From a virus: 32,627 nt of DNA. Position 1 is the first letter of the stretch. Each line of letters opens with the position of its first letter. Made by a program: the position numbers and the translations under genes. Below, piece after piece: positions 12,801 to 32,517 of the stretch. The DNA lies in IMG/VR virus record IMGVR_UViG_3300032116_000817, positions 1 to 32,627 of that record; one strand, 5' to 3'. Below the pieces are notes generated by a model. It saw nothing but the letters and a program-made list of their open reading frames with translations. It searched no databases and was not told the origin of the DNA.

Positions 12801-14570
12801 TGTAATGATAATAGAAGAATTGTTTGGTACTATGCTAGCAATTCCAACATTAAATTTGGTTGTTTGGATGACATCAGCAGAGAAAGTCTTTCCTGTTCCT
12901 ACTGTTCCATATACTGATCTAACATCAGAAATTCCATATGAAATTACATTCCTACAAATTCTGCTGATTGTCTCATCTCCATCAAAAATCAGAGTCTCAA
13001 AATTTGAAAATTCTCCTGTTGTTTGATAGAGAACCATTAAAGTACTATTACTTACGGAGGTTTTTAAGAATCCAGTAGCTCCACTATTCTTCCCTTTAAC
13101 AAAAGTAGGAGTACTTAATGTTATTGCTTCATTTAAAGTTATTTCTGTAGTTGTTTGAATATCATATAATGATATATTCCATTCATTGAGGTTGGGGTTA
13201 TTGCTGTCATATGATCCAGATTCTAGTCTAAAATCATATACTCGCGCAACACCAATTTCTTTTCCTTCTGAAGTTATTCCTGTGTTACCAACTCTAGAAT
13301 CTCTGAGACTAAGGACATAATTATTTCCAATTCCAACTTTCGGAGAACCATAAACTCTATTTAGTTTAAATGTTGGTCCGGTATTATATACGATAGTTTG
13401 ATTTTCTAGTGTTTTTGTTTCTCTTGGTTTAGGGACATCAATAAGAGAACTGCTTATGACTTCGAGTTCATAACCTCTTACATATGCTTTTCCGGGAGAA
13501 ATTTGATATAAAGCAAGATCATCTGAAGGCACTGATCCACCATCAGTTAAATCGGTGGAATTGAATATTCCACTATTACCAAGTTTATCATTTAATGAAT
13601 TTTTCAAAACAACATCAAAAGGTTTTATATAATAATCTCCAGATTCATCATATGTTCTTCTGGCAAATTCTTCTGCCAAACCACTGTATTGAGTATACTT
13701 ATCAGAAGAGTATTTAATAACACCAGATCTTACTCTTGCTAATTCAATGAAATTAGTATCCTCAAAGTCATCTAAACTTTTTTTAAATAAAGAAACAGTG
13801 ATTTTTAATCTATCTGCACCTGGAGAAGAATAATTATTAAATCCTTGAGAATTATCATTTAATTCTTCGTCTAAATCTGAGTTTATAATTTGCTCATTTA
13901 CAAAAAAACCAATTCTATAGTTGGGGGTAAATGAATATTGATCCAATATCAAGGTTTCTTTACTTACCCTTACAAAATGTCCCCTAATAAAATATATACC
14001 ATCGTTGACAGAAAATGAAGATCCTGTTGAGGTACAATTTCTAGAGACAGTTATCCCAAACGGTTCTCCTACTGGAATATTAGAAGTTCCTAGTAATTGA
14101 GAAATTACAATATTATTTGAAGAGAGTTGTTCTCCTTCAACAAATCTAGTTCCAGACCCAACTGTACTGGATTGGAGATAATTGAGGTATAATGTTAAGT
14201 TTCCTCTTTCAGAATTTTGGGGAAGTAAAACTTGGTTTACTACAGCAGTTATTCCAGAAGTTAGACCTGTTATTGTAGAACCTACCAATTGATCTGCATA
14301 AGAAGATACTGGGATTCCCAAATAAGTATTTTCTAATTCTACGCATTCATAAAAGTTATTATAAAAAGTATTTCCAGGGATTACCTTTGCGCCATCTTTA
14401 AAGAAATGCTGCCCAAATTTTTCTATTTGGTTTTGTAGAATTGATTGGAGTGTGGTTAATTCTCTCGCCTGTACGGGATATCCTGGTTTAAATAGGACTT
14501 TATAATAGTCATTGTTTGCGTCAAAATCATCAAAATATGGGGATACATTTAAATTTGTTTGTTGTGACAT
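6861..14570 (-). CDS. Giant DUF4815-type virion protein (2569 aa) in the gp9-gp12 position
   Basis: This is a structural protein, probably of the outer baseplate or tail fibre. The N-terminus has YFDDFDANNDYYKVLFKPGY followed by PVQARELTTLQSILQNQIEK and FGQHFFKDGAKVIPG, which I recognise as the DUF4815 start common in cyanophages. A middle conserved region has DPLAQSFTVGSKGVFLSKC (about residue 1750). The C-terminus ends VPRIKNLRVLALA. Residues about 1645-1690 are a poly-Pro run followed by an Ala-Ala-Pro repeat, a probable flexible hinge. GIGY-type and G-E-x-I-x-G-type beta modules also occur. It sits between gp8 and gp13, where T4 has gp9, 10, 11, 12 and wac, so it may replace several of them (inference). 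The start overlaps no gene and lies six bases after the gp8 stop. No clear ribosome-binding site is seen. Confidence 0.93.
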   Translation of the reverse strand: MSQQTNLNVSPYFDDFDANNDYYKVLFKPGYPVQARELTTLQSILQNQIEKFGQHFFKDGAKVIPGNTFYNNFYECVELENTYLGIPVSSYADQLVGSTITGLTSGITAVVNQVLLPQNSERGNLTLYLNYLQSSTVGSGTRFVEGEQLSSNNIVISQLLGTSNIPVGEPFGITVSRNCTSTGSSFSVNDGIYFIRGHFVRVSKETLILDQYSFTPNYRIGFFVNEQIINSDLDEELNDNSQGFNNYSSPGADRLKITVSLFKKSLDDFEDTNFIELARVRSGVIKYSSDKYTQYSGLAEEFARRTYDESGDYYIKPFDVVLKNSLNDKLGNSGIFNSTDLTDGGSVPSDDLALYQISPGKAYVRGYELEVISSSLIDVPKPRETKTLENQTIVYNTGPTFKLNRVYGSPKVGIGNNYVLSLRDSRVGNTGITSEGKEIGVARVYDFRLESGSYDSNNPNLNEWNISLYDIQTTTEITLNEAITLSTPTFVKGKNSGATGFLKTSVSNSTLMVLYQTTGEFSNFETLIFDGDETISRICRNVISYGISDVRSVYGTVGTGKTFSADVIQTTKFNVGIASIVPNNSSIIITSTNPLFSGKNVKVGEIIKYTNPQKLSLPYYAKVSGINTASIEAVGVTSVSNFIEGGIPSSNIIVNDLEILTTSLVSSQDNTLYSKLSKSNISNVDLTNSTLTIRKSFDNQIITSDKLIVSLSDPDESFLPFDEERYTLTNSNGTIQTLTKDKFSINGNTLTISNISFDLGGSTLVATIRKSKPKEKIKKKNRINYTIIDKSILEGSGTGQDTINNGLVYGNYPYGTRVEDDLISLNYPDVIEIHAIFESKGTSAANSPSLLLSSIGSQSGKTSDLIIGEKIIGESSGSVAILVERKTDSEIRYISKNNISFRIGETLLFEESNIKCILASSDSDSNDITTHYSFNSGQRSTFYDYSTVVKKSNFNSPTRQLKIYFSNAYYDSSDEGDITTRNSYFECDYSKEIAVVDNTRVTDIIDIRPRVSPYTATIDTRSPLEFYGRSFTTSENSSKNSLASDESIVLNYSFYLGRVDTIYLSKNGTLQTKLGASAENPERPVPIDDSLEIATINLPPYLYNASDAVINLTEHKRYRMHDIKVLEDRIRNLEYYTSLSLLESKTSNLLIQDSNGLNKFKSGFFVDNFSDDKAPIQDLSFGRNNSIDPSSQELRPNIDTQNINLLPFNDKIISVDDDNSIEGENVVINDGIITLRYTDTIWRSQDIATRTESVTPFILNYWKGSIELTPSTDTWFDSPVLLEAENFIADVGDADLYKKVYNLNESGALVTYNNWQTTWSGTPDRKTEENKTNLRQVTYQGWTTNTRIYNEKTITTFETGTTSRTGTKISLDPSIGSPISVGQRVVKRDNSQFIRSRNIQFEGKGLLPGTEVKAYFDGVDVTNNCFPKLLEIEMVSGTGKFQIGENIIASFNNGTTLQHNATLRACHPRHKSGPHAIINENDFKTYFKINPYTNVEIPNNYSETSDILNIDTYLLSDTSSSSYGGIVFPNMILEGATSKAKAKVLRTRLKVDYSSVVMGSFFIYPAKDSLVKFGTGTKTFKLSDQSSTDAQENFTASGFVETIQPTTISVRTYKLASREILETGQTQERVLKTDITQETVSRTSVDNTPPPPPPPSYSYSPPPQPAAPAAPAAPAAPAAPAAPAAPTQINYDGPVYAQGAQQRLVEAAAAVGLTGGLRSVAEQLGINNFERGGGGNVSKELGDKITNRLVGKGANICARDPLAQSFTVGSKGVFLSKCVIYFNSKPSTDGLTVDFELRSMSNGYVSSGPKPSDYILDGSQISKLPSEVNISNDGSVGTEFRFKHPIYLEGNKEYAIVLLSQSPDYSVFISRVNETDLITNSFVSNQEDFGSLFKSQNSTTWEPSQWEDLKYQLWRADFVRSGFVNFYNPKLTNETLNYSKKLFPDSVILNSRKLRIGLASSLPSNSGLVIGNTILQSNSKGVGNYVGSAGSAFGALNLINSGIGYTPSSGSLVFSNVNLETITGDGRNASATIFITNGKVSSALISNGGIGYKIGDVLGISSGSLNVGSGARVSISSISSVNEIIVDNVQGDFIVSGTPSLQYKNDVGSTVNLNIAASNIITVSDGLHVKVNQKNHGMHSSQNYVIISGVESDIKPTKLSQNIVASTITSGGSIYVDDSSNFQSFENVGVASTNPGYLLIGNEIIPYESTSNGAINGLIVKPEKDYEVGTLVYKYELGGVSLRRINKQHNLSLVDTSIIKDPIEFDSYHVKLDMSSAGIDRSVETSLPKLYINESKSSGGLNISASKNIQFELIQPIIPNTTVTGTSISGVIRTTQGTSINGNESSFIDVGFEPVSIYENNYLDSPRIICSDVNEVQNLLGEKSFNLRVNLSSTDSLLSPTIDARASSITLVTNRVNDVIDDYAQDNRVNSPIDDPTSFKYISKEVQLETSSTSIKIILDSHLTSSSNIRAFYAISDNPNFSPIFIPFPGYLNLNKYKEVINFEDSDGLPDNYILPSTLSTFNNVDFRECTFTANNLPSFRYFRIKLIGTSSSQVHVPRIKNLRVLALA
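9514..9576 (-). repeat. Seven tandem 9-bp repeats encoding Ala-Ala-Pro
   Basis: On the plus strand the unit GGTGCTGCG occurs three times, then GGTGCTGCA three times, then GGTGCCGCT once, with no interruption. It is in frame and encodes an Ala/Pro repeat directly after a poly-Pro run in the 2569-residue protein. The block is far more GC-rich than its surroundings. Runs of identical copies suggest expansion by replication slippage. Confidence 0.95.
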
Positions 14571-16141: not shown

Positions 16142-16157
16142 TATTTATTTATTTATT
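16142..16157 (-). promoter_or_regulatory. Triple overlapping AATAAATA late-promoter-like motif before gp8
   Basis: A four-base repeat (TTAT on the plus strand) creates three overlapping copies of AATAAATA on the minus strand, at 16150-16157, 16146-16153 and 16142-16149. They lie 15-30 bases before the gp8 ATG and next to the stop codon of the upstream giant gene. Several registers of the same element could give several start sites. Confidence 0.45.
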
Positions 16158-19100
16158 ACGTAACGTACCCAACATATCTTAGTGGATTGGATCTTATAAC
16201 AACCGCACTAGTACTCAATCCAATGATACCATTATTTCTATATGAGGAATATTCATTGGAAGAAGATCTTTGTTGTAGATCTATTTTACCCCAACTATAC
16301 TCTCCATAAAAATCACTAAATCCTAATCCGGTTAGATTATTATACGACGCTAGACTGACTACAACTTTTAATACTGAAGATTGTCCTCCACTAGGAACAA
16401 AAGATGACCCAACAGAAACTGACCGTGCGATATAAACATTATCTAACCTTGAAGTTCCGACCCCAACTATGCTTCCTGTAGAATTTAAGGAAGTTACTCC
16501 ATTTCCAACTTTAGAATTATAAACAACGAAATAGTCTCCGGTTTTAATTCCGCTTATAGTAGTTGCAGTTCCACTTATGGAACTATTTCTAAGATAAGAA
16601 TTATTTGGTATGAACAAATCAAATACCAATCCAGTAACAGCAACACCAACTATTGATGTAGTTGCAATACCCGTAATAATTCCATGATCTCCAAAATAAT
16701 CAGATACAATACATTTTTCTTTTTTAATTGAAGGTGGTTCAATTAAAACTTGAGGTGGATTTGTGGTTTCATACATACTTCCGCCATAAGTCACTGTAAT
16801 ATTTGATATTTTTCCTCCATTAATTGACGAAGATGCCGAAGCTCTAAAAGTAGTTCCTAGACCAACTGGGGATTCTAAAATAACAGAAGGTGCAGACACA
16901 TAACCACTACCTGCATCCGTAATATTAATTGAAGTAACTGTTCCTGCTGAAGATACAACAGAAGATGCTCTGGCAAATTCTGTTGTGTCATTGGATAATA
17001 AAGTCACTTCATATTGGAAATTTAAATTGCCGGTAGATGATTCTTTGGGGGAATTGAAAAATGGTCTTATATTATCAACATAAACAGTGGTTGAATTTAC
17101 ACCAACTGAATTTATAATATATGCGCTTGGATATATTGCAGGTTCATAAGTTACTCTATTTTTAGAAACAATAAGAAAATCTATAAGTTTATCTTCAGTT
17201 TGTTTTCTCCAAAATGTTGGGCGATATAGAGTTTGATCTTGTGAAATTCCTTCTCCAAAATATAATTCAGTTTCTGCTGAATTTGAGTATAAAGTAGTTA
17301 TTGTTCTTTTATTTTGTTCTAAACTTTGTGGTTGATTTGAAAAAATATCGTATGAAAGTTGTAGTTCATCGCCCTCTTTAATGGTTTCTATAGCATCAAC
17401 TGTATTTGTGTCATAAACAGAATTTCCGGTATAGAAAAGAATTTTGCAAGTATCTCCAGAAATTACATTATCTGAAGATTTTCCTTTAGGTGCTTCATTA
17501 AAAATTATTTTATCTCCTTTTGTAAAACTATAAGATTCGCCAGGAACTTGCAAAACATCATTTATGAACACTAGTAGGTTATTTTCAAGGTTTATTTTTG
17601 ATCCTTGGTTAGAAATCAAAGAATATCTTTGATTTCCTATAGACAATGGAAATCTTTTTCTAACCCCATCGAAAAGACCACTTATATTATCAAGTACTTT
17701 AATTCCACCAATAAACCATCCTGAGAACTTATCGGATCTTATTTCTTCAACAAAAATATTAAATTCTTTAAATTGTTTAGTTGTATCTGTAGGAATTCCT
17801 ATAGTACCACCAATAGGAATAGTTAAAATATCTCCTTTTTTATAGTTATAACCAAAGTTCTTTATTTCAAAATTTATTATACTGGATCCATTTCCAACAA
17901 TAACATCAATTTTTGCTTGAGTTCCTATGCCAGATGACTGTGATGAATAAATGAGTGGAATATTTGAATAAGGTAGAGGGTCATCAATAGTTAATATAGG
18001 AGGATTAGATTGGGAGTATCCAGATCCTGGATTAGTTATAGATACCCCAACTATATTTCCTTTGCTTACTGTTGCTATTCCAATATAAGTAATTTTATTA
18101 TCTTGTTCATATTGAGTTATAACACCAACCCTAATCGGACTTTGTATTCCTGATCTATATCCAGATCCACTATTTCCAATTGAAACTGAGGAAATCGTTC
18201 CAGATATTGAAACAATAACAGTGCCCCCCGCAGAAACTAATGGTTGATATCCAAGACTATCGCTAGATCCAACAGATACTATAACTCCTTTTGTGGGCAA
18301 ATTCCCAGTGTTAATGTCAGTTTGATTTGGAATGTTATTGGAACCCACAAAAAATACTGTAGTAACACCAGATCCTTCAGACAAATAATAATTATTTGTT
18401 AGAGTTATTTCGTTTGTTGTTATTGATGGTATCTGGGGAATGTTATTAATTAATAACATTATATTATCTGTTGATATTCCAGAAACATTCGTTTGATTGT
18501 TTTTAAGAATAAATCCACTGGAAATACCAGTAAAAGAATCTGAAATATCGTCAAAAATATAATTATTGCTATATGTATCTTTATTTTGGTCAGGATTGCC
18601 AGATTTTATAAAAGATCTTCCGTGGAATTTCGATTTTTGTGTTAAGAATGCGTCTAAAGGATCTACTAGTGATAAAGGGGGTGATGCAAAATTGATAGTA
18701 TTTTCATTTATGTTATAGTTTCCAATAATTTTTGTAATTATTGATCCTTGAGAATGTGATTCTGGATCTGTTCCTAATAAAGATCGATCTACTTTTATTA
18801 AATTTGTAGATCCAATACCTACGGAATTAATTTTCATTATTTCGTCATCAATTTTTATAAAATCTCCATTAAAAAATGAAGAAATTCCTGTAGCATAAAC
18901 AAAATCTGTCGATATTGAAATATTTTGAGACAATGAACTTTTCACTGATGTTATTGTAATTGGAGATTGAATAATTCCATCTATAGAAATTAATACTCTA
19001 GAATTTTGATTAAAGCAAGAAAAATAATGAGTTGTTCCTATACCGACACTAGTGATATCTAAAGTTTTTGGTGTAGAATTTAACGCATCTTCTGCATTTC

Positions 19101-22100
19101 GCGATATCTTTATTTTATTATCGTCTATTTTTACTACATATAGTTCATTTGGTAATTTATTTGTCGTCCCTATTCCCACTCCAAAGTAAGTAGAAGCAAT
19201 TCCAATTGAATTGGATACTGAATTTGTTCCATTAAAGTAGGAAATTTTTTCCCCAGTAACAAAAAAGTGATTTTCTATTTCTATAGTATCTGATGTAGTA
19301 TCTACGATAGACTGATCATTTCCTTTAAAAACTCTCTTAAATATCGGATAATCGTTACTGGTTAAAATAAAATCTTTTTTAGATACATTATCACTACTAT
19401 CAAATTGAGAACTTATATCATCTATGCTAAGAACTTTATTTCCGAATGATAAAATATAATCTTGTACTACTTTATTTTTAAATATAATCTCATTTGAGAC
19501 TAATTTTGAGTCTATATTGAAGATATTTTCTGAAGAAAGATCAAAATAATAAGTATTAAAATCCGATTTGCTAAAAATATCTAATGTAACGGAAAGATCA
19601 GATGGTTTAGTTGTTGATATTCCAGCATATTGAGTAGATTCTAATTGATAATCAGAAAAAACTTTGAACCCTTTGGGGTGATTTAAAGTTAAAACAGAGT
19701 CTTTCCAAGTATCATAATCTACTTTTGATTTTATTGAATATGAAAAATTTTGATAATAGAAACTATCTTGAATTTTTTGAATATCATCATTCAAAAATCC
19801 ACTATTTTGTTTCCATCCTTTATTCAACTTTGTTTTTGAAGAAATATTAGTTGTAGAATCTGTTTTGTATATGTTTAAAATTTTTGATTTTGCCCCAGTA
19901 GATTCTCCCTGAATTACTTCACCAATTTGAAATTCCTTAGTTGGATTTGAAATAGTTAAAAGACCCGAATATTCGTCCCAATCAGATACATAACCTTCTT
20001 TTTCTTGTGATGACTCTGATTTAATATTTTCTCCAACTAAATATTGACCTCTTTTTAACGTAATAGTAAATGAAGGGAAATATTTTTCCGGAATAATTCT
20101 ACCCACAGAATTAATATTATCAAAAACACCAGGATCTTCTCCAGATTCTAAGTAATCTTTTAAACTATAGGTTAATGTTCCTTGACCCAATCCAACATCT
20201 ACGGTTAATTGCTCTATAGTGAATAGTTCATAATTGTAATTTTCGGAATTATATCCTTTACTTTCACTGTCAGAAACCTTTGCATTTTCAATAAGTATTT
20301 TATCATTAAGAGAGAATGGAAAATCTCCAGTATATGGAAAAGTAATTGTAACAAGTTTGGTAGTAGAATTAAACTCTATGGAGTTTATTTTAAATCCATT
20401 GTTATTTTCTATTGGTATTATTTTTGGAATCAACCCACTCAAAGTAGAAGTATTTTTTACTATTTTTACGACAGTGTTGTTTAGGGAATACTCCAAATCC
20501 AAATCTTGTATAACTTCATTAGTTTTGCTATCTATTGCTAACAATTTTGGTGGAGTATTATAATTTATTCCAAAGGAGGAAACTGTTATTGTATCGATAG
20601 AATATAAAGATTCTAATTTTACTACTAGTATAGGATAATTTTTTGGCACTAAAGTGGTATCAGAAGAAAAATCAAATCCTATATTATTAATTTTATATCC
20701 TTTTATTTTTCCAATAGACTCACTAAAACCTTCCAATAAAGCATCTTTTCCATTAATTGAATTTATTTTCGAAATTCTTGGTAAAGAGTAATAATTTTTC
20801 CCAGGATCAACTACCTTTATCTCTGAAATGGGACCAAAAGCACTGATAGAATTTGTACTATAACTTAATGATGATATTGTTGATGAATACGAAACAACCT
20901 CTGGTTTATTGGGTAATAAGTACTCGAAAGAAGAAGTAGAACCAACACCAACAAAAACGGGGTAATTTCCTATATAACCACTTCTCAATAAATCTAAGGT
21001 ATTATTTGACTCTATTAATAAATTATCAACTATAATTTCTCTTTTATTTTCTGGATAAACAATTCCATCAGTAAATACTGGAACTAATCGATAATATAAT
21101 TTGTCAGGAAAATCACTCTTTATGTTTAAAATGACCTTTGCATTCTGACTAATTCCAACAGTTCCTTCTTGAATAATATTAAATTCTTCATATTCTTCTG
21201 TTTTATTGAAAACATTTTTAAAATATGGGTCAGTATAAAGTTCAAATTTAAAGGCTGAATATTGATTGTTATTTGCTGTATATGCTAGAGAAGAATCCGA
21301 TAAATCAAAAGTAACATCAGATTCTTTATATAATTTTATTAACGGATTAATTGGGGAAATCGATCCATTAGAAACAGAAGTTATTTTTATTGTTTTTGGG
21401 TCTGGAGAAATAGAGTCATAATAAGAATCACATAATTTTATAGTATTTTCATCTAAAACTAAAATGTAATAAATTTCATTATTGGTTAAATTTTGTGTTG
21501 AGGTATCTGTTTTGTAAATTATTTTTTGCCCTGTGACAAATCTGTGATCATCAATAGTAATAGTACTATTCAAAGTACTAACTCCTGAAGATATAAAATT
21601 CTTTGGATTTATAATAACTCTTCTTTTTTGATCATCATATTTTACAATTACTGATGTTGATGTCTTTGGATTTACATCTATGGATACTATGTCATTAGTT
21701 GTTAATCCATGAGTGCTTGATGTGGATACAGTAACAACATTTTTTGACACCGTTCCATATATTTTTTCATAATTGGTTTTAAAACTATGATTAGTTCCAG
21801 TTCCTATACCAGAAAAATACAAAGTTGTAGAATTTTTTGTTGCACTAGTAATCCCAACAAATCCACCTGTACTACCAATTCCTACCTTAACCGTCGAAAC
21901 TCCTATAATATCATCAGAAATCTTTGCTACAAAAAGTTTTGTATTATTGGATAAAGAAAAATTTGAAGATCCATTTATAGAGACTTGTATGGTAGATCCT
22001 CCATTGGAAGAATATATTAACTCATCTCCAGTTTTTAATCCATGATTTGGAAAATAAACTGATTTGCTTGGAATTAACAATGTTGTTGCTCCACTTCCTG

Positions 22101-25100
22101 GATTTGAAAAATTTAAAGTATATCCAATTCCAACACCCAATCCTAAAGAATCTTTTGGATTAAAATAGAGTTCATCATTTAGTTTATATTCGAATTTTGG
22201 CGAATATTGATTTTGGAATATTATTTTTCTTGATTTTTCCTCTAATACCTCCAGTGCTGAATGGGCAGAACCAACAGTTCCGTAAACAGACCTTAAAACT
22301 CTTATTCTAGAAGATAAATTATCAGCATTTAAAACTCTAACTTTTTCAGTTCCTATTCCTAAAATGTCGTTAGATTTAAAATTATCAATATTACCAGAGA
22401 CAGAAAAATAAGTTACTATTCCCGTGGAAGAAACACTACCTACATTTTCTCTTAGTACTAAGAAATTGCTTGGGACCTCAATTAAGTGCAATCCATCAAA
22501 AGTATAAGTTGTAGTACTCAATCCAGATATTGTTACTACTTCATCATCTTTAAACTGATGTGGGTCTTTAAAAATTCCTAAAAATGAATTATTTCTAAAA
22601 TCTGGATAGAATTCAACATTACTAACACTAGTCGTTGTTACACTTATATTTTGTATCGCTTTTCCAAAAACTTTAGAGACTTTTGCGGCAGCATTATAAC
22701 CAGATGTTCCTTGGTTATCAAATATTATATTATCTCCTACCCGGTAATTTTCTCCTGAATTTAATATTTCTACCTTTTCAATATATCCCGGAGAAATGGA
22801 TTTAACTTCAGAGAATTGTATTTTATAATCTTGAGTATTCAAATATTCATAGATAATATTTTTATCATCCAATCCATAAGAATTTGTATTTCTTAAACAT
22901 TCGATTTCATTCAAATCAAGTTTTTCTTGAGTTGAACCTGAAACAAAATTAAATCCATTTGGTTTTGAGCGGTAGAAATTTCCTACAAAATATGGGAATT
23001 TTGGTTTTTTATATCCATTAAATTCGCTAGATGTAGTTAAATCTAATGTAGAAAAATAAGCATATACTCCTAGGGGAAATTCTGGAGTAATACAAAATCT
23101 TCCATTGTACTCATCGAGACAATTTTCATCATTTTTGTTTTTATACTCATAATCTTCTATAAAAAATCCTAATGGAAATTCTGGTCTATTATTTTGAGCA
23201 GATGTTTTTAGTAAGTATCCTGAGTTTAATTGAACTATTCCACCACTACCATTTTTTTTATTATATCCATAAGGACCATATATGGGATTTCCATCGTATG
23301 CCCATCCTATTAAAGGAGAGTGTGATAAAATATTTGGATTTGTATTATCATTCAAAATTTCCTTAAATTTTCTTGGATAATACAAATGTCCATACTGCAA
23401 TTCATCTTCTTTAGAAATTGATTTAAATAATGCGCCATCATCTAACTGACTAAAAGATTTTAAAAATCTTTCTACTAAATTGATAGTCCATGTTTGAATC
23501 TTTGGATATAATTTAGCTCCGCTGCCATTTGCTAGCACAGTTATTTGTGTTCCGCTTTGACTATACCCAAATCCACTTTCTATAACTTTAACAGAAATTA
23601 TAGATCCTCCACTTACTATTGGATTTAAAACTGCACCAATTCCATCACCTATCACTGAAATGACGGGAGAAGAGTTATAATCCTGTCCTGAGGAAATAAT
23701 GGAGACATCTACTATTCTTCCTTCTTTTATGATAGGACTTAACACTGCTCCAGAACCAGATTCTAAAGAAATTTCAGGTAATCTATTGAAATTTAAAATA
23801 TCCGGAGATCCATAATTAGTTCCTTTATTGTTAAGATGAATAGAAGAAACTTTTCCTCTAAACTTTGGATTTACTCTAGATTTAAAAACATCCTTTGTTA
23901 TTGATCCACCTACAGTAGATACTCCAATTTCTCCAATAACACTTACATTTATTTCTGGATAATTGAAAATATGAGTACCAACCCCAACAGAATTAAATTT
24001 AATATACTGTGCTGATTTGTAATAAAAATCTTTCTCTGTAATTCCTACGCCAACTTCCGAAAGAGTAAAACGATCTTCATTCAGTTTTGTTATGAAGTAT
24101 TCTTTATTTGTAGATAAACCAGAAATCGCAGTTCCTTCCACTGAATATTTTAATATTTCTCCAGATTCATATCCATGGTTTTCTATAAAAATTGCTCCAT
24201 ATCCAGAGAAAGTACTAATCCCAGAAGAAGAAGTAGTTCTTTTTTTATTTTGATATCCGCTTCCTGGATCGATAATACTAATAGATCCTACAGTAATTTT
24301 TTTATCATATGCTAAAATTTTATGTTCCCCTACTCCCAGAGAAGTAAAAGATATTGCAATTCCAGAATTAAATTGTTCTATATTAGAATGAAGTTGAATC
24401 TCTGTTGGTGATTTTACTGACACATAGTATGAAGCATTAGTAGATATGCCTCCAACTGAAGAATATCCATTAGTCTTGTAAATTACTCTTTCGCCATTTC
24501 TAAATTTATGATAAGTAGAAAACCCTATTTTTGATGCAGTTGAATTTCCTGTGGTTACATTTTTTTGAGCGTCAAATAAGACTTCATGGTCAACTAACTT
24601 GATATTTGCTACAGCATTGGCACCGGTGCCGTTTCCTCCTGTAATGGATATTATGGGTGTTTCTACGTAATCAAATCCAGGATCTATAACTTCAATATCT
24701 GCTAAGATTCCCTCAACCGAGCAATATCCAGATACTCCACTTCCTAAAGAATCTTCTACTTTTAAAATGGGTGGATTTATTACATCATAATCATTTTCAG
24801 AAGACAATATCTCTATAGATTCAATTTGTCCATAATATATTTTATCCGTAGATTTATAATTGAATATTTCTGTTCCGTTTATTAATATTCCAATTGCTCC
24901 AGGAAAAGACTCATAATCATTACTGTCGTTTGTTGGTGTAGGAATTACTCTAAGTAGTTTTTGAGCATTTAGGGACTTTGAAGCAAAATTAAAAAATTCT
25001 ATTTTGCACCCGTCTGCATCATCATAGGTAGAATTTTCATCTAAATTTAATTCAACAAAATCTGATTTATAAATTGATGATCTACTTTTACCCAAGTTAA

Positions 25101-27006
25101 TTTGAGTATCGTTTTGTCTGTTTACGAAATAAATTCCTTCCTCAAGTAAATTTTGGGCTTTCTCATTATTTGCTGGAGTGAAATATACTATATCTCCGCT
25201 CTCAAAATAATGACCACCTTCTATTTGTATTGTACTAATTCCAATAAAATTGCCAGTGACTGAAAAGTCATTAGTACTTAAAGGCAAATCCTCATACTTC
25301 GGTAAAGAATTTGTTGCAACTATTAATTGATTATCTTTTTCGTATATATTTTGTACATCTGATGAAATTTTTAATAGATTAGAGTACTTTGATGATTGTA
25401 TATTTACCTTAGATATTTTTCTTCTTATTGAATATAGAACATTTGGTGATAGATCAATTCCTTTGATCGAAAATGAGGTTTTATTAAATACTTCATCTAC
25501 TTTCACATTAGAGTTTATATTTTTAATTTCTACAAAATCACCTTTTCTTATAATATTATTTGATTTTGTGGTTATAGTGTATTTTTTCTCTTGAGAATTT
25601 GTCAATTCTACCGAACAATTATTATAAGTTGGGGAAGTATTGAAAATCCAATTATTGAACGCAAAATTATTATCCTCATTAAATCCTAAAGATTTAACTG
25701 ATATTTTTGTATTGGGGTTATGATAAAAATTATCAGGGTTATTTTTTAATTCTACTTGATTCAATATAGAATTAATTTTAACCTTTATTACTTCTGAATT
25801 TAGGGAACTTCCATACGCAAAGGTGTTTATTGATACTTTAGAACCATTTGAAATTGATCCAATACTACTTCCATTTACACTAAAACACCCATAAAATTGA
25901 TTTACTGACTTTGATGTGTATGAAACTATTCCAGAAGTTCCATCTGTATACTCAACACTTAAATGTCCATTTTTAGGAAATCCTAATGTCGAGTCTACAG
26001 TAATCACGTCTGATAGTTCTGAATGATCATCAATTACTTTAGTTTTGGGGTGAATTGAAAACTCGCCATAAACAGAACCATCTACGCTAATATCTCTGGA
26101 GTATCCTGCATCTACGCTTAATTTATAATATTTTTCGCCAGATTTTGTGATAAGTGTTTCTACACTTGTAATCGGAGCATATGATTTTGCATAATTTCCA
26201 TATTCATATTCATCTTGATATAAAGTAGAATTCACCAAATCTAATGGATTTCCGTCTATAGATTCTACGACAAAATCATAGGTTACATTATACTGAGCAT
26301 CTGACGGCTTAAATAAGTAATCTTTTGGTCTTATAATTTTTACACTTTGCCCATAAAGACATTTAAATAATATGTTAAAAGATTCGTCTGTTCCCTTTGA
26401 AGAATAAAAATCATGTCCCTGTTTGATAAAAAGTTTTTCATTAACCGCAGAATATAAATTCTTTTCTTCAAATCCCGGTAAAAGTTGATATTTAGTTTTT
26501 TTTAAGAACTCATTTAAAAATAATACACTTAAATTAATTATTTTTGAACCAGATTTATGAGTGTCTGATAGTGAAGTTTTAAATAATACTTCATCTGAAG
26601 ATCCTTCTGCTTCATAAGAAACAATGCCACTAAATCCTCTAACACATCCAATGAAAGAATCTTGGGATGTTTCTTTATAGGTGATGATTTCGTCATCAAT
26701 TTGTAATAATCCGTATGATTTTGGAAATCCTTGAGTTCCTGTTGGATTTTTCTCCAAATCAACAGTGATTACCTCATCAAGAAACGATATATCTTCCTTT
26801 AAAATTACATCACTTACATTCTCTGCAGAGTTGTCAATTTTAGTATATCTATCAATATTCTGAATCAAGTCTGCAGGAGATCCTTGATATTCATTAGAAA
26901 TATAATATTGCGTTAAAAATTCTGAAAAAAGAGGAAATTCCTCTTTAATATATTCTGGAAGTTGATTTTCGACAATATTAGAGAATTTAATTCTGGTTTC
27001 TGACAT
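16156..27006 (-). CDS. Giant gp7-position baseplate protein with YHYH domain (3616 aa)
   Basis: This is a virion structural protein, 3.5 times the length of T4 gp7 (1032), which occupies the same slot between gp6 and gp8. The N-terminus (MSETRIKFSNIVENQLPEYI followed by FPLFSEFLTQYYI) is the usual start of the cyanophage protein in this position. A YHYH-type domain lies at about residues 1230-1320, with GWAYDGNPIYGPYGY and RFCITPEFPLGVYAYF. The rest is mostly short beta modules. At least eight have G-x-G-Y or G-x-x-Y turns followed by x-P-x-I, and about seven share H-x-F-x-x-G-E-x-I-x-Y. The segment VFINDVLQVPGESYSF, typical of fibre repeats, is near 17520-17580. A single unbroken frame supports it as real. 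The start is four bases after the gp6 stop. gp7 identity rests on position rather than on clear similarity. Confidence 0.92.
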   Translation of the reverse strand: MSETRIKFSNIVENQLPEYIKEEFPLFSEFLTQYYISNEYQGSPADLIQNIDRYTKIDNSAENVSDVILKEDISFLDEVITVDLEKNPTGTQGFPKSYGLLQIDDEIITYKETSQDSFIGCVRGFSGIVSYEAEGSSDEVLFKTSLSDTHKSGSKIINLSVLFLNEFLKKTKYQLLPGFEEKNLYSAVNEKLFIKQGHDFYSSKGTDESFNILFKCLYGQSVKIIRPKDYLFKPSDAQYNVTYDFVVESIDGNPLDLVNSTLYQDEYEYGNYAKSYAPITSVETLITKSGEKYYKLSVDAGYSRDISVDGSVYGEFSIHPKTKVIDDHSELSDVITVDSTLGFPKNGHLSVEYTDGTSGIVSYTSKSVNQFYGCFSVNGSSIGSISNGSKVSINTFAYGSSLNSEVIKVKINSILNQVELKNNPDNFYHNPNTKISVKSLGFNEDNNFAFNNWIFNTSPTYNNCSVELTNSQEKKYTITTKSNNIIRKGDFVEIKNINSNVKVDEVFNKTSFSIKGIDLSPNVLYSIRRKISKVNIQSSKYSNLLKISSDVQNIYEKDNQLIVATNSLPKYEDLPLSTNDFSVTGNFIGISTIQIEGGHYFESGDIVYFTPANNEKAQNLLEEGIYFVNRQNDTQINLGKSRSSIYKSDFVELNLDENSTYDDADGCKIEFFNFASKSLNAQKLLRVIPTPTNDSNDYESFPGAIGILINGTEIFNYKSTDKIYYGQIESIEILSSENDYDVINPPILKVEDSLGSGVSGYCSVEGILADIEVIDPGFDYVETPIISITGGNGTGANAVANIKLVDHEVLFDAQKNVTTGNSTASKIGFSTYHKFRNGERVIYKTNGYSSVGGISTNASYYVSVKSPTEIQLHSNIEQFNSGIAISFTSLGVGEHKILAYDKKITVGSISIIDPGSGYQNKKRTTSSSGISTFSGYGAIFIENHGYESGEILKYSVEGTAISGLSTNKEYFITKLNEDRFTLSEVGVGITEKDFYYKSAQYIKFNSVGVGTHIFNYPEINVSVIGEIGVSTVGGSITKDVFKSRVNPKFRGKVSSIHLNNKGTNYGSPDILNFNRLPEISLESGSGAVLSPIIKEGRIVDVSIISSGQDYNSSPVISVIGDGIGAVLNPIVSGGSIISVKVIESGFGYSQSGTQITVLANGSGAKLYPKIQTWTINLVERFLKSFSQLDDGALFKSISKEDELQYGHLYYPRKFKEILNDNTNPNILSHSPLIGWAYDGNPIYGPYGYNKKNGSGGIVQLNSGYLLKTSAQNNRPEFPLGFFIEDYEYKNKNDENCLDEYNGRFCITPEFPLGVYAYFSTLDLTTSSEFNGYKKPKFPYFVGNFYRSKPNGFNFVSGSTQEKLDLNEIECLRNTNSYGLDDKNIIYEYLNTQDYKIQFSEVKSISPGYIEKVEILNSGENYRVGDNIIFDNQGTSGYNAAAKVSKVFGKAIQNISVTTTSVSNVEFYPDFRNNSFLGIFKDPHQFKDDEVVTISGLSTTTYTFDGLHLIEVPSNFLVLRENVGSVSSTGIVTYFSVSGNIDNFKSNDILGIGTEKVRVLNADNLSSRIRVLRSVYGTVGSAHSALEVLEEKSRKIIFQNQYSPKFEYKLNDELYFNPKDSLGLGVGIGYTLNFSNPGSGATTLLIPSKSVYFPNHGLKTGDELIYSSNGGSTIQVSINGSSNFSLSNNTKLFVAKISDDIIGVSTVKVGIGSTGGFVGITSATKNSTTLYFSGIGTGTNHSFKTNYEKIYGTVSKNVVTVSTSSTHGLTTNDIVSIDVNPKTSTSVIVKYDDQKRRVIINPKNFISSGVSTLNSTITIDDHRFVTGQKIIYKTDTSTQNLTNNEIYYILVLDENTIKLCDSYYDSISPDPKTIKITSVSNGSISPINPLIKLYKESDVTFDLSDSSLAYTANNNQYSAFKFELYTDPYFKNVFNKTEEYEEFNIIQEGTVGISQNAKVILNIKSDFPDKLYYRLVPVFTDGIVYPENKREIIVDNLLIESNNTLDLLRSGYIGNYPVFVGVGSTSSFEYLLPNKPEVVSYSSTISSLSYSTNSISAFGPISEIKVVDPGKNYYSLPRISKINSINGKDALLEGFSESIGKIKGYKINNIGFDFSSDTTLVPKNYPILVVKLESLYSIDTITVSSFGINYNTPPKLLAIDSKTNEVIQDLDLEYSLNNTVVKIVKNTSTLSGLIPKIIPIENNNGFKINSIEFNSTTKLVTITFPYTGDFPFSLNDKILIENAKVSDSESKGYNSENYNYELFTIEQLTVDVGLGQGTLTYSLKDYLESGEDPGVFDNINSVGRIIPEKYFPSFTITLKRGQYLVGENIKSESSQEKEGYVSDWDEYSGLLTISNPTKEFQIGEVIQGESTGAKSKILNIYKTDSTTNISSKTKLNKGWKQNSGFLNDDIQKIQDSFYYQNFSYSIKSKVDYDTWKDSVLTLNHPKGFKVFSDYQLESTQYAGISTTKPSDLSVTLDIFSKSDFNTYYFDLSSENIFNIDSKLVSNEIIFKNKVVQDYILSFGNKVLSIDDISSQFDSSDNVSKKDFILTSNDYPIFKRVFKGNDQSIVDTTSDTIEIENHFFVTGEKISYFNGTNSVSNSIGIASTYFGVGIGTTNKLPNELYVVKIDDNKIKISRNAEDALNSTPKTLDITSVGIGTTHYFSCFNQNSRVLISIDGIIQSPITITSVKSSLSQNISISTDFVYATGISSFFNGDFIKIDDEIMKINSVGIGSTNLIKVDRSLLGTDPESHSQGSIITKIIGNYNINENTINFASPPLSLVDPLDAFLTQKSKFHGRSFIKSGNPDQNKDTYSNNYIFDDISDSFTGISSGFILKNNQTNVSGISTDNIMLLINNIPQIPSITTNEITLTNNYYLSEGSGVTTVFFVGSNNIPNQTDINTGNLPTKGVIVSVGSSDSLGYQPLVSAGGTVIVSISGTISSVSIGNSGSGYRSGIQSPIRVGVITQYEQDNKITYIGIATVSKGNIVGVSITNPGSGYSQSNPPILTIDDPLPYSNIPLIYSSQSSGIGTQAKIDVIVGNGSSIINFEIKNFGYNYKKGDILTIPIGGTIGIPTDTTKQFKEFNIFVEEIRSDKFSGWFIGGIKVLDNISGLFDGVRKRFPLSIGNQRYSLISNQGSKINLENNLLVFINDVLQVPGESYSFTKGDKIIFNEAPKGKSSDNVISGDTCKILFYTGNSVYDTNTVDAIETIKEGDELQLSYDIFSNQPQSLEQNKRTITTLYSNSAETELYFGEGISQDQTLYRPTFWRKQTEDKLIDFLIVSKNRVTYEPAIYPSAYIINSVGVNSTTVYVDNIRPFFNSPKESSTGNLNFQYEVTLLSNDTTEFARASSVVSSAGTVTSINITDAGSGYVSAPSVILESPVGLGTTFRASASSSINGGKISNITVTYGGSMYETTNPPQVLIEPPSIKKEKCIVSDYFGDHGIITGIATTSIVGVAVTGLVFDLFIPNNSYLRNSSISGTATTISGIKTGDYFVVYNSKVGNGVTSLNSTGSIVGVGTSRLDNVYIARSVSVGSSFVPSGGQSSVLKVVVSLASYNNLTGLGFSDFYGEYSWGKIDLQQRSSSNEYSSYRNNGIIGLSTSAVVIRSNPLRYVGYVT

Positions 27007-27010
27007 TTTT

Positions 27011-28921
27011 TTAAGATCTTACTAAATTTCCATTACCATAGCTTGAAGATACAATATAGTTTGATGCTGAAGGATCTGCTCCAGAAGAAATTTCATCAAC
27101 TACCATTTCAAATAAACTGCTATTAATATCTAGTTGCAAATATAAATCCTGCAATCCAATTACATCATTTGATTTTGGAATTGCAGATATTTGAATAGTC
27201 GGTTGTCCATTTATTATTTTTTCAGTAGATATTATATTTAATGGATTTAAATTAATTATACCTTTTTTATAATCTATAGTTCCAGCACTTCTCCTAACAA
27301 TAGTTGGGTTAGTTGAGGATTTATTTGGCAGACTAAAGAAGAATATGATCCCTGTTTCCCTATCAGTGTTTGGTATGTCTGATAAGTAGAGGTCTTCTTG
27401 TACCCCAGATATTCTAAATGCAGTAGATTTAATATTGAAACCGTTCAGATCCGAAATATGAAATTGATTGCCGAATCCAATTGAATATGTTGCAAAAGAA
27501 TTTGCTACTATTCTTAAATCCCTACGAATAGAAATTTTTGTAATGTTAGATGTAATTGCACTATGACTGTCATCTATAATTTTTAAAAATTTACTATATT
27601 TAAATCTCGCCCCATACTTATTCAACTCAGTGGATTTTGCATACTTATTTACATTATAATTAATTGCAGTTAATACCTGTTCTGACCCTGAAGATAAATT
27701 TGGATTATAATAAATTTTAGAATCTGTCTCTACGTAAAGATATTTTAAATCTAGAATTTCGGGAACTATTCCTGCAACAGAATATTGCTTTAACTTTAAT
27801 TTTATATTTTCTTTGATTAAATTTGGTAGAAAATCTCCAGTCCTTGGCTTAATACTAATGAAGACTTTTCCATACTGAGGGGGAATCAATTCTTCTCCAC
27901 CGAAAACAGAAATAGATTCTGTTTCTGGATATACTACAGTTTTAATAAGAGATTCGTAATCATTTGATGTTACGGCTCTATTTTGAGATGCGTATATCCT
28001 TCCTGAGTATTTTTTAATGGATTCAATCTCTTCTATATCCTCTCCACCAGACGAAATTAGCCCAGTTGATAATAAAGAAATTCCAGAGGTAATATTTTGG
28101 TTATTTGAAGACGACAATGTTCCAGAAAAAGAAAATTGAGATATTCCATTTCCAGATTCTCCATTGGATACAATATAAGAAACTTCTATTTGATCTCCAT
28201 TTTGCAGAGATTCTCCAAATACACCATCGCCAAAAATTATTTCATATCTTTCATCTTCTACTTCTTGTATGAAAAATACTTTGGAATTATTATCTATGTC
28301 TAGTATATTTTTATGAAGCATATAATTTGATTTGACACCATCTCTATCCACAGAGACAGAAAGCAAATCAGTATCAATGCCAGGATTGGGTAAAATAAAT
28401 CTTTGATTTAAATTATTAGTGTTATATGTAAAGTTAGTAGTAATCAATGAACCTTCATAGATTTTAATATCCTCAAAAGATGCAATGCCGTTAAAAATTG
28501 GTTTTGTAATATTCTCTAAGATTGAAAATACAAATGATTGGTTTGAAAATGTGTTTGAACTTGAAGATACTATTCCTTTTTTAAGAGTTATTGTAGAACT
28601 TTGTATATTCGAGTTTGAAAGATCTACAAAAAAACTTACTGTTGCTCTTGCTGATTTTTTGGATCTTGGAACATATCCAATGTTTCTCGCAAGAGCAACA
28701 ACATTTTCTCTTAATGTCGCACTATCTATAAAAACCTCATTTGCAACCATATTTGCATTATATGAAGTAATATAGGTATTATATGCTAATACATCTAAAA
28801 TTGTAGATAAATTAGATCCTTCAAAATTATAGTCAGTAAAATTTGAGTTTGATCTCAAATAATCTTTTAGTGTTGTCTTGATCTGATCGAAATCTAAATT
28901 TGAAAAATTTGTTAATGTCAT
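27011..28921 (-). CDS. gp6: Baseplate wedge protein gp6
   Basis: gp6 forms the inner baseplate ring and holds the wedges together through a dimer. The 636-residue length is close to T4 gp6 (660). The N-terminus (FDQIKTTLKDYLRSNSNFTD then GSNLSTILDVLAYNTYITSY) and VFIDSATLRENVVALARNIG, with the following YVPR, match the baseplate J-like / gp6 family. IEEIESIKKYSGRIYASQNR-like residues and AVTSNDYESLIKTV form the conserved middle. The ATG directly follows the gp25 stop codon (TAAATG), so translation is probably coupled to gp25, its partner in the wedge. Nothing unusual is seen. Confidence 0.94.
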   Translation of the reverse strand: MTLTNFSNLDFDQIKTTLKDYLRSNSNFTDYNFEGSNLSTILDVLAYNTYITSYNANMVANEVFIDSATLRENVVALARNIGYVPRSKKSARATVSFFVDLSNSNIQSSTITLKKGIVSSSSNTFSNQSFVFSILENITKPIFNGIASFEDIKIYEGSLITTNFTYNTNNLNQRFILPNPGIDTDLLSVSVDRDGVKSNYMLHKNILDIDNNSKVFFIQEVEDERYEIIFGDGVFGESLQNGDQIEVSYIVSNGESGNGISQFSFSGTLSSSNNQNITSGISLLSTGLISSGGEDIEEIESIKKYSGRIYASQNRAVTSNDYESLIKTVVYPETESISVFGGEELIPPQYGKVFISIKPRTGDFLPNLIKENIKLKLKQYSVAGIVPEILDLKYLYVETDSKIYYNPNLSSGSEQVLTAINYNVNKYAKSTELNKYGARFKYSKFLKIIDDSHSAITSNITKISIRRDLRIVANSFATYSIGFGNQFHISDLNGFNIKSTAFRISGVQEDLYLSDIPNTDRETGIIFFFSLPNKSSTNPTIVRRSAGTIDYKKGIINLNPLNIISTEKIINGQPTIQISAIPKSNDVIGLQDLYLQLDINSSLFEMVVDEISSGADPSASNYIVSSSYGNGNLVRS

Positions 28922-29323
28922 TTATCTAGAAGGCAGTAATACAAATTCTAACTGTTGTGGTTGTACATCTGCACCAATAATTCTATAGATTATTGTTACG
29001 TTAAAAGTATTATTATCATAATCTGGGACAGCACTAACATCAATTAATTCGACTCTTGGTTCATAATTTCGAATAGAATTTTCTATTTCATCTTTAATTG
29101 TAGTAGATGTAAGATCATCAAAGTTTTCAAATAACGATCTTTTTACTTGAGAACCAAAAAAGGGATTAAAAAATTTTTCTCCAGGTTGAGTGAAAACAAT
29201 ATTTCTTATAGAACGAGCAATTGCAGTTTCATTTTTAATTCCAATAAGGTCATTGTTCAGAGGATTAGCCTGAAATGACATACTTATATCTTTAAAACCA
29301 CTACTTACTCGTTCTAAAGGCAT
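28922..29323 (-). CDS. gp25: Baseplate wedge protein gp25
   Basis: gp25 is the small lysozyme-like-fold wedge subunit (GPW/gp25 family) that sits next to gp6 and nucleates sheath assembly. The 133-residue length is almost the same as T4 (132). The family features are present: an N-terminal DISMSFQANPLNNDLIGIKN, then AIARSIRNIVFTQPGEKFF, and NPFFGSQVKRSLFENFDD with the conserved Pro-Gly-Glu and Asn-Pro. The C-terminus has YRIIGADVQPQQLEFVL. The start is marked by a late-promoter-like AATAAATA about 21 bases upstream. There is no Shine-Dalgarno sequence, and a 9-bp A/T-only hairpin reaches into the start codon. Confidence 0.95.
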   Translation of the reverse strand: MPLERVSSGFKDISMSFQANPLNNDLIGIKNETAIARSIRNIVFTQPGEKFFNPFFGSQVKRSLFENFDDLTSTTIKDEIENSIRNYEPRVELIDVSAVPDYDNNTFNVTIIYRIIGADVQPQQLEFVLLPSR

Positions 29324-31484: not shown

Positions 31485-31616
31485 TTTTTTCTGGGAAATT
31501 TTTTTTTTTTATAAGAGTGAGATAGAGGTCGAAAAAGACATACACTGTAGGTTAGGGACTTATCGATTTTTCATAACGGGGGGCAACGCAAAATATAAAC
31601 AATTAACAATAAAACA
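31485..31616. other. Non-coding leader region before the small-gene run
   Basis: No reading frame is supported here. On the minus strand it ends in CTTATAAAA followed by a 12-A tract, which gives a possible -10 or late-like TATAAA without a convincing -35 partner. A short G-run lies near 31578-31583. I see no tRNA and no strong terminator. Confidence 0.4.
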
Positions 31617-31850
31617 TAATAACTGCTATAACGAATAAACAACTGACAACGAATAACTATCATTATTCGTCATTGTTTATACTAACTGCCCCCAATCACT
31701 GCGTTATTACTATAAAACAACGCAGTTCTTTACACTAACTCCCAACAAAAACCCTACTTATACATAAAGAACTGCCTATTCTTTATACGAACTGCTGCCA
31801 ATTAACGACGAACAATAATAACTATAAAGAATTAAGTTGCCCCAAGTGAT
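31617..31850. repeat. Cluster of hairpins and degenerate direct repeats (array A)
   Basis: There are three strong inverted repeats in about 150 bases. (1) ACGAATAA (31649-31656) with TTATTCGT (31663-31670), enclosed by ATAAACAA (31635-31642) with TTGTTTAT (31673-31680). (2) ACTGCGTT (31698-31705) with AACGCAGT (31719-31726). (3) ATAAAGAA (31764-31771) with TTCTTTAT (31779-31786). The spacing element ACTAACT or ACGAACT starts at 31681, 31734 and 31787, exactly 53 bases apart, and each copy is followed by a C-rich stretch. ACGAATAA also occurs as a direct repeat at 31631 and 31649. No coding frame fits. The stems are not followed by U-runs on the minus strand, so they are not simple terminators. 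Confidence 0.75.
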
Positions 31851-31956
31851 ATAAACAATCAGACAAAGTAATAATAATAAACGAAACATCTATCAGGCGA
31901 TGTACCTTACTGACGCTGAGTATAATACACTTAGGGCGATTTGAAGAGTATTCTAA
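31851..31956. other. Non-coding gap between array A and the 55-residue gene
   Basis: No gene is supported. ACATC and GATGT form a weak 5-bp stem near 31886-31903. The plus strand has a TATAAT at 31921-31926, but without a -35 element or a gene downstream on that strand. I see nothing else. Confidence 0.3.
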
Positions 31957-32124
31957 TTACCAACGCACGTTGAGATCTTCTACATAACTCTTCACCTGTT
32001 CATTACGATCAAGTTCAAAGAGTTTGTTCCAGTTAATCTGATGTGGATTAAAATCTTCATTCACGTTGAGTTCTAACGTGATGCGATACTTATTCTTTTG
32101 TGCTGTGAGAGAAGCAGTTGCCAT
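31957..32124 (-). CDS. Small conserved cyanophage protein (55 aa), unknown function
   Basis: Translation from the ATG at 32122-32124 gives MATASLTAQKNKYRITLELN, VNEDFNPHQINWNKLFELDR and NEQVKSYVEDLNVRW before TAA. The first half is a beta hairpin (YRITLELNV), followed by a helical segment. From memory, small cyanophage proteins with the same LELNV.DDFNPHQIDW.KLF pattern exist, which supports coding. The gene stands alone, with non-coding repeat regions on both sides (arrays A and B). The ATG has no obvious ribosome-binding site. The role is unknown. Confidence 0.8.
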   Translation of the reverse strand: MATASLTAQKNKYRITLELNVNEDFNPHQINWNKLFELDRNEQVKSYVEDLNVRW

Positions 32125-32207
32125 AAGAGAGAAAGAACGGAGGAACGAATAAACTCTACTGTTGAATTCTACCAGACCCTACTCTACCCGTCAAGTTATT
32201 CCCTACA
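32125..32207. other. Leader between array B and the 55-residue gene
   Basis: No coding frame is supported. One copy of ACGAATAAAC (32145-32154) matches the end of the last array unit (32513-32522), but it is out of the 72-base phase. I see no clear -35/-10 pair for the 55-residue gene. Confidence 0.3.
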
Positions 32208-32517
32208 ACGAATCTTAATTATACACGAATACTTTCTATCTGTAAGTGCGCGGAAGACTTATACAACCAATTCTCCAATACGAATCTTATCTAAACACGA
32301 ATGAATTATCAGATTAGAATATAACAGCAGTGTTATATTGTTATGCTCTATACGAATCTTATCTAATCACGAACAAACTTATGAGTTCTTAATTCTCATC
32401 AGTTCGCATTATCAAATCTCTGTACGAATCTTATCTAATCACGAACAAGTTCTGAGATGTAATCTCATTGTCTGTTTGATTCTGATGGTTCTGTACGGTG
32501 TCTTATCTAATAACGAA
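32208..32517. repeat. Phased 72-bp repeat array with hairpin spacers (array B)
   Basis: Five copies of a 22-23 nt core start at 32208, 32280, 32352, 32424 and 32495. Aligned on the inner TCT, they stand at 32213, 32285, 32357, 32429 and 32501, exactly 72 bases apart each time. The core is ACGAA, then TCTTATCTAATC, then ACGAA. The third and fourth copies are identical, the second has one change, and the outermost copies are degenerate. The four spacers are 49-50 nt and unlike each other, but each holds an inverted repeat: TAAGT/ACTTA (32243-32261), AATATAAC/GTTATATT (32318-32339), ATGAG/CTCAT (32381-32399) and TGAGAT/ATCTCA (32453-32467). No coding frame is supported. The direction of action is unknown. 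Confidence 0.85.

Follow-up and report, generated by a model that had tools for sequence, protein, structure and literature searches.

Evenly spaced direct repeats in noncoding DNA raise the question of what they are for, and a series of this kind lies near one end of the stretch of viral DNA analysed here (32,627 nucleotides of IMG/VR record IMGVR_UViG_3300032116_000817; hereafter the window). The initial annotation had offered three readings, namely mobile regulatory cassettes of the PeSL type (early promoter plus stem-loop), a tandem protein-binding site, or a series of small structured RNAs.

The repeat array and its genomic setting

The window is part of a T4-like cyanophage genome, since it carries gp25- and gp6-like genes (positions 27011-29323), its nearest records are mostly those of Synechococcus phages, and its gene order is that of S-SM2 and Bellamy, which match it in the direction of gp25/gp6. 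The array is located ~3 kb upstream of these two genes. The genes around it run on the minus strand, opposite to the cores as originally described, and continue to do so past the window end in L004, on the contig of the window's nearest relative (L004/L032; 98.5% identity over 1161 bp). Elsewhere in the window, two very long minus-strand ORFs (2569 and 3616 aa) occupy positions 6861-14570 and 16156-27006.

The array (32208-32517) consists of four plus-strand cores of the form ACGAA-N12-ACGAA and a degenerate fifth, which start at 32208, 32280, 32352, 32424 and 32496, that is, at four steps of exactly 72 bp. Core 1 (32208..32229, ACGAATCTTAATTATACACGAA) is the closest to a small gene encoding 55 amino acids and is followed by core 2 (32280..32301, ACGAATCTTATCTAAACACGAA), by cores 3 and 4 (32352..32373 and 32424..32445), both of which have the consensus sequence ACGAATCTTATCTAATCACGAA, and by core 5 (32496..32517, CGGTGTCTTATCTAATAACGAA). 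Since the last of these begins with CGGTG, its left ACGAA half being lost, the form initially ascribed to all five cores is valid for four, while the 72-bp spacing holds for all five. The hexamer TCTAAT is indeed present in copies 3-5, and the four 50-bp spacers (32230..32279, 32302..32351, 32374..32423 and 32446..32495) do differ from each other in sequence.

The window has 28 plus-strand copies of ACGAA, 15 of which fall in 975 noncoding bases surrounding the 55-aa gene (15.4 per kb versus 0.41 per kb in the rest of the window); TTCGT is found there once. Apart from the cores, these plus-strand half-sites include a lone one between the promoter and the 55-aa ORF (32145..32149), 63 bp from core 1 and out of phase, two that are 18 bp apart on the far side of the gene (31631..31653), and three more at 31787, 31808 and 31881 (31787..31885). 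The noncoding region past the gene (31485-31956), in which plus-strand half-sites lie, also contains a block, AAAAAGACATACACTGTAGGTTAGGGACTTATCGA, shared with the 156-kb contig G001. Taken alone, the window is not decisive: a loose core pattern allowing one mismatch gave 4 matches, a number reached by 5 of 100 shuffled sequences, and the array was absent from the list returned by Tandem Repeats Finder for the window.

The array lies upstream of the start of the 55-aa ORF (phrog_12516; 31957..32124, minus strand), which is preceded by a sigma70-like promoter (32166..32194, minus strand; hexamers TTGACG and TAGAAT separated by 17 bp, the latter preceded by TG). This gene is present in 18 phage records. 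Its product has no Pfam match and shows no similarity to RepEA/RepEB of T4, and structure prediction yielded one short helix and no DNA-binding fold (pTM 0.45); as far as the predicted structure goes, the protein is not an obvious binder of the array.

Recurrence of the array in related phages

The exact core pattern ACGAATCTTATCTAANNACGAA matched 28 other IMG/VR stretches, 23 of which contain two to four matches, and all steps between these matches are exactly 72 bp. With looser cores the steps were 71-73 bp, except for steps of 55 and 17 bp arising from out-of-register matches. A search with the 55-aa protein led to 52 loci, of which 42 were found by inspection to contain the array, in some cases clipped by contig ends, and 10 to be array-less (L071, L072, L076-L083). 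A pattern with free gaps (periods of 62-82 bp) identified 56 IMG/VR stretches; six of them, unrelated and lacking the 55-aa gene, were dropped, and the other 50, all at the 55-aa locus, comprise 24 contigs known from the protein search, 25 found by tblastn, and L151, retained because the gene is present on its contig in L075. In the 26 newly found arrays, 55 adjacent steps measured 69-73 bp and five steps 141-1317 bp. Up to six core-like sites occur in a row, and in a few loci extra core copies are found 251-1317 bp farther on.

The search for the core beyond the window, proposed in the initial annotation, was thus productive among relatives (50 arrays, always at the same locus) and fruitless elsewhere in the same genomes. 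In 11 of 15 records (up to 156 kb) the core was matched at a single place and in a single orientation, and for a shorter core pattern matches were obtained from 19 of 20 records, likewise at the 55-aa locus; in both sets of 15 and 20 records, some of which are fragments, no core was found outside the array locus. Among named phages, a DNA search with the whole region returned zero matches and one with the core only weak partial matches among the 20 listed of 31, and the core is absent from nine phage genome records (S-SM2, SynMITS9220M01, Bellamy, S-PM2, S-SCSM1, S-SRM01, P-TIM68, S-B05 and DSL-LC03). Since the loci share ancestry, none of these locus counts are independent. For the measurements given below, 43 upstream regions were reduced to 33 distinct ones by merging 10 duplicates (that of the window with L032), and five with fewer than three cores were left out, leaving 28 distinct arrays. 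Contig ends lie within 300 bp of 4 of the 28 arrays versus 1.4 expected (p 0.04), a result obtained with a post hoc cut-off and given no weight.

A scan of host genomes with the array pattern returned 68 stretches, many of them from Chryseobacterium. Two of the latter (L163, L222) carry 77-bp arrays with CTAATCACGAA which are CRISPR-like, being composed of a 47-bp repeat and a 30-bp spacer; this repeat differs from the phage core. The remaining stretches mostly have single matches. Judged by its repeats and spacers, the phage array itself was rejected as a CRISPR array, the 22-bp core being degenerate and spacer families being shared between phages. A coding tandem repeat was likewise discarded, as 27 of the 28 arrays have no frame on either strand that is free of stops, and 31 of the 96 intervals cannot be divided by three.

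Spacing and spacer sequence

Core-to-core intervals, of which the 28 distinct arrays provide 96, have a mean of 71.6 bp (sd 0.90, range 69-73), with 60 intervals of 72 bp, 19 of 71 bp, six each of 70 and 73 bp and five of 69 bp. Among six other landmark distances at the same loci, five have an sd of 55-214, and the sixth, within the late-promoter module described below, has an sd of 1.2. Because the interval chains admitted 66-76 bp only, the free-gap scan (62-82 bp) represents the freer test of spacing, and it gave the same range of 69-73 bp for adjacent intervals in the 50 arrays at the 55-aa locus. Array periods are largely lineage-specific, which implies that strict helical phasing is not required.

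In an alignment of 81 non-redundant sites, part of which were retrieved with a pattern fixing CTAATNACGAA, information extends from -2 to +28 and is near background from +29 on (almost none at +29 to +49), delimiting a conserved element of ~31 bp around TATACGAATCTTATCTAATCACGAATGAAYTTT. Spacers within one array share 39.8% ungapped identity versus 31.2% in shuffles (60 pairs from 72-bp units), the identity being high at the first 13 and the last two positions. Whole units have been lost, as in L052, which is without the position-1 unit present in L047/L048, and one spacer family occupies different positions in different loci. The pairwise ratio of gaps to substitutions is 0.137 in arrays versus 0.106 in leaders (79 pairs), i.e. 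gaps are no fewer in the arrays; since the alignments paired non-orthologous spacers, this ratio was judged unreliable, yet it counts against a constraint on length. Single-linkage clustering of 85 spacers was discarded, as 80 of them ended up chained together.

Elements surrounding the array

A strong promoter on the opposite strand (TTGAC..TATAAT/TAGAAT..AAGATCAC), antisense to the neighbouring genes, was matched in 31 of 36 loci, including 24 of the 26 that bear the array and 7 of the 10 that do not; the patterns used for this promoter and for the AT block derive from the sequences tested. In the seven array-less loci this promoter lies 86-152 bp from the ATG of the 55-aa gene, in contrast to 726-1496 bp in the 24 array-bearing ones, so that the array and further modules sit between two back-to-back promoters which are close together in array-less phages. 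The distance between array and antisense promoter is 320-1125 bp (20 loci). In the present phage the promoter is situated past the window end; in L004/L032 it lies 846 bp from the ATG.

Past the antisense promoter there is an AT-rich block. Its exact form TTTTWAATACATTT is missing from nine of 15 records and occurs once in each of the other six, namely at the array locus in five and beside a box cluster in S-PM2. In 16 of 31 loci a longer form, derived from these very loci, scored above every one of 100 shuffles. The motif TTTTCCACA, which we take to be the cyanobacterial form of the DnaA box, is rare (0-8 per record); of 11 records, four have it clustered here, two have a single copy and five have none at this place. 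Such boxes were seen at 11 of the 36 loci, six of which show a 21-bp step between them, and at 11 of the 31 loci having the antisense promoter, and an exact box was not found in L032, the nearest relative of the window. The AT block and three boxes of S-PM2 occupy 9.69-9.75 kb of LN828717, ~4 kb from the junction of the ORFanage as mapped in this analysis.

Array-less relatives have other short repeats at the corresponding place, as found in all four loci counted: ATCTAG in L076 (11 copies in 560 bp versus 0 in 4315) and L080 (16 in 601 versus 2 in 5534), TCGTCGAGAT in S-SRM01 (L089; 5 in 560 bp versus 0 in 5581), and AAATCTTAAG in S-PM2 (L229 9601-10120; 3 in 520 versus 0 in 21480).

A late-promoter-like match, TATAAATA, is also found near the array, upstream of it in 19 of 26 array loci. 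Two recurring structured-looking modules, of the CCCGTAGGAAAGTTCAA and GGAGACCG..CTCCCTC types, lie to the right of the array in L004, L005, L006 and L024 and on its other (left) side in L070; the former is fixed at 43-47 bp from the TATAAATA match (13 loci). In the same region, homing endonuclease genes (GIY-YIG, HNH) were detected on the opposite strand (L028 4219-5025, L001 6051-6578).

Possible function of the array

Among the three initial readings, the tandem protein-binding site fits best with a ~31-bp element that is noncoding, confined to one locus and held at a constant spacing. From these features of the sequence we infer protein binding, and tentatively, at a confidence slightly short of even, we regard the array as a set of iteron-like DNA-binding sites in an intergenic control region of this T4-like cyanophage that is probably a replication origin. 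A protein of phage or host origin would bind each ~31-bp element around TATACGAATCTTATCTAATCACGAATGAAYTTT, and the equal spacing of ~72 bp (about 6.9 turns at 10.5 bp) would let the protein units touch each other or wrap the DNA regularly. The resulting complex could act on the strong antisense promoter and the AT-rich block, influencing opening or transcription, and the antisense transcript may serve as the primer for leading-strand synthesis, a mechanism that has been described for origins of T4.

The origin reading is supported by the held spacing, the single locus, the surrounding promoter, AT block and boxes, the replacement repeats of array-less relatives and the likeness to oriE of T4. 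Several observations count against it. The distance of 320-1125 bp from array to antisense promoter is far for direct action, and the array is unnecessary for that promoter, given that 7 of 10 array-less loci retain it. The boxes and the AT block are patchy, the 55-aa protein has no predicted DNA-binding fold, and GC skew along a 156-kb contig makes no turn at the array, the cumulative skew climbing nearly throughout and thus being uninformative. Iteron-like sites at a putative origin nevertheless remain the most likely explanation of a recurring, single-locus and spacing-constrained array.

A possible, if rather unlikely, alternative is that the array is an upstream control element, activating or silencing the 55-aa promoter, the antisense promoter or an early-to-late switch, and has no role in replication. 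Its position suits such a function: in the 28 distinct arrays the last GTCAA before the array, which is the complement of a -35 hexamer, is separated from the first core by 14-290 bp (mean 60), a loose sigma70-like match is located 24-53 bp upstream of the 55-aa ATG in all 36 loci, ACGAA half-sites occur on the far side of the gene too, and the TATAAATA match is near. However, array-less relatives keep the same gene and promoter, the core precedes no other promoter in the records searched, and several sites spread over 160-380 bp at a held spacing seem excessive for the control of one small gene.

A role of the array in packaging or segregation, either as a pac-like start or in the manner of a centromere, is improbable. 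In favour of it are the single locus per record, the tandem sites with a held period, and S-PM2, for which a 2-3 fold rise in read density immediately past the ORFanage was reported and attributed to terminal redundancy (PMC4503421), the AT block and boxes of that phage being ~4 kb off. Against it, T4-like phages package by the headful mechanism with weak site preference, the terminase match lies ~32 kb away at the opposite end of the window, and the ACGAA core is absent from S-PM2.

Even less probable is the possibility that the units are RNA elements, be it PeSL-like cassettes of promoter and stem-loop or structured RNAs processed from a transcript crossing the array. TCTAAT resembles a -10 hexamer, and a late transcript would cross the array wherever TATAAATA lies upstream, although in L070 and L073 the late match is found solely between array and gene. 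Promoter-like sites number 7 in 1.2 kb versus 4.8 expected, and the three inside the array each occupy a different place in their unit. The inverted repeats noted initially in every spacer carry a structural signal in one of four only: compared with 200 shuffles, spacer 3 folds better than chance (z -2.7 on the plus and -2.6 on the minus strand), but folding of the others is ordinary (z -0.96 to +1.36). Over 38 spacers from 10 representative loci the mean z is -0.32 (plus) and -0.53 (minus), the corresponding values for 90 50-mers from the flanks being -0.38 and -0.35 (p 0.69 and 0.32), and 85 distinct spacers average -0.24 and -0.45. The suggestion that stems keep complementarity while changing sequence did not hold either, since among eight unit families pairs changed on both sides were absent from the plus strand and limited on the minus strand to one in each of four families; a TGAG/CTCA stem is nonetheless kept across the six units of family 3. 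No Rfam family reached the gathering score in the array regions of 11 loci (two tRNA matches lie elsewhere in those loci), and in the window all Rfam matches were sub-threshold (E 0.03 or worse). The possibility of tRNA-like units was considered and rejected: the window has no tRNA, and the tRNA-Met gene found in 4 of 23 loci scanned lies away from the array.

PeSL copies are dispersed in the genome, whereas the core was found at the array locus only in the records searched, some of them fragments. Given that no promoter recurs per unit and no second locus was found, the array is not a PeSL, and with spacers no more structured than their flanks the hairpin reading is rejected as well. What it shares with the PeSL cassettes of T4-type phages, which are taken up in a paper citing them (PMC4503421), is an intergenic position and the combination of a conserved and a variable part.

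Least probable of all is neutral tandem duplication, according to which the units would owe their equal length to having been duplicated and to identical cores recombining with each other: the loss and movement of whole units, the lineage-specific periods and the undiminished gap counts agree with it, but spacers of one array are so diverged, at 39.8% identity, that the duplications must be old, with their length hardly changed.

Comparison with known replication origins

The oriE region of T4 contains evenly spaced direct repeats of ill-defined role and an early-mode promoter, according to the section of the review consulted (PMC3016281). In the T4 record, the oriE primer RNA is complementary to the gene 5 transcript and oriE is near gene 6, and six copies of a repeat with a 24-bp (8-codon) period lie inside gene 5 (T4 79402-79569; L231 4903-5070). 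It is our identification that these are the repeats referred to in the consulted section of PMC3016281; coinciding as they do with an 8-codon repeat of gene 5, they may be coding repeats and not iterons. Both systems combine, in a T4-type phage, evenly spaced direct repeats with an early-type promoter giving RNA antisense to structural genes (deduced for the cyanophage from the sequences of relatives), near baseplate wedge gene 6 and a GIY-YIG endonuclease gene (segC in T4, that of the relative L028 here). They differ in that the cyanophage element of 22-31 bp is noncoding, has a period of ~72 bp and is unrelated in sequence, and in that T4 possesses repEA/repEB, to which the 55-aa protein bears no likeness. 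By analogy, the array may work like the oriE arrangement; with no kinship seen in sequence or between the 55-aa protein and repEA/repEB, it is not classed as an oriE homologue.

The R-loop origins oriF and oriG of T4 likewise have a promoter followed by an A+T-rich unwinding element, but their promoters are MotA-dependent middle promoters, no repeat array is described for them in the section consulted, and their activity is proven, whereas the cyanophage locus is a putative origin (PMC3016281). Iteron origins of plasmids and satellites, such as the RepA iterons of PLE, also consist of clustered noncoding repeats whose type varies between relatives at the same place, as described in the portions of the papers available (PMC8263062, PMC7145576). 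The cyanophage period is longer than that of the PLE example, and an initiator gene is only postulated here.

Implications for T4-like cyanophages

A more speculative and rather doubtful extension is that the origin of T4-like cyanophages is plasmid-like, with an exchangeable, lineage-specific array (ACGAA here; ATCTAG, TCGTCGAGAT or AAATCTTAAG elsewhere) that is recognized by its own cognate initiator and adjoins a conserved core of promoter, AT-rich block and DnaA boxes. The even ~72-bp ruler would then determine how the initiation complex is arranged in space, and the type of repeat could decide which phages co-replicate in one cell.

A literature search, outside the scope of which most subscription papers fell, found no paper on the replication origin of T4-like cyanophages, and the array region represents a concrete candidate for it. 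The array could also help to test what the evenly spaced repeats at oriE are for. Mutating the T4 repeats is hampered by the location of those found there inside a structural gene, whereas the cyanophage repeats are noncoding, recur across numerous phages and are missing from relatives in which the neighbouring promoters persist, thereby offering a natural comparison of genomes with and without the array.
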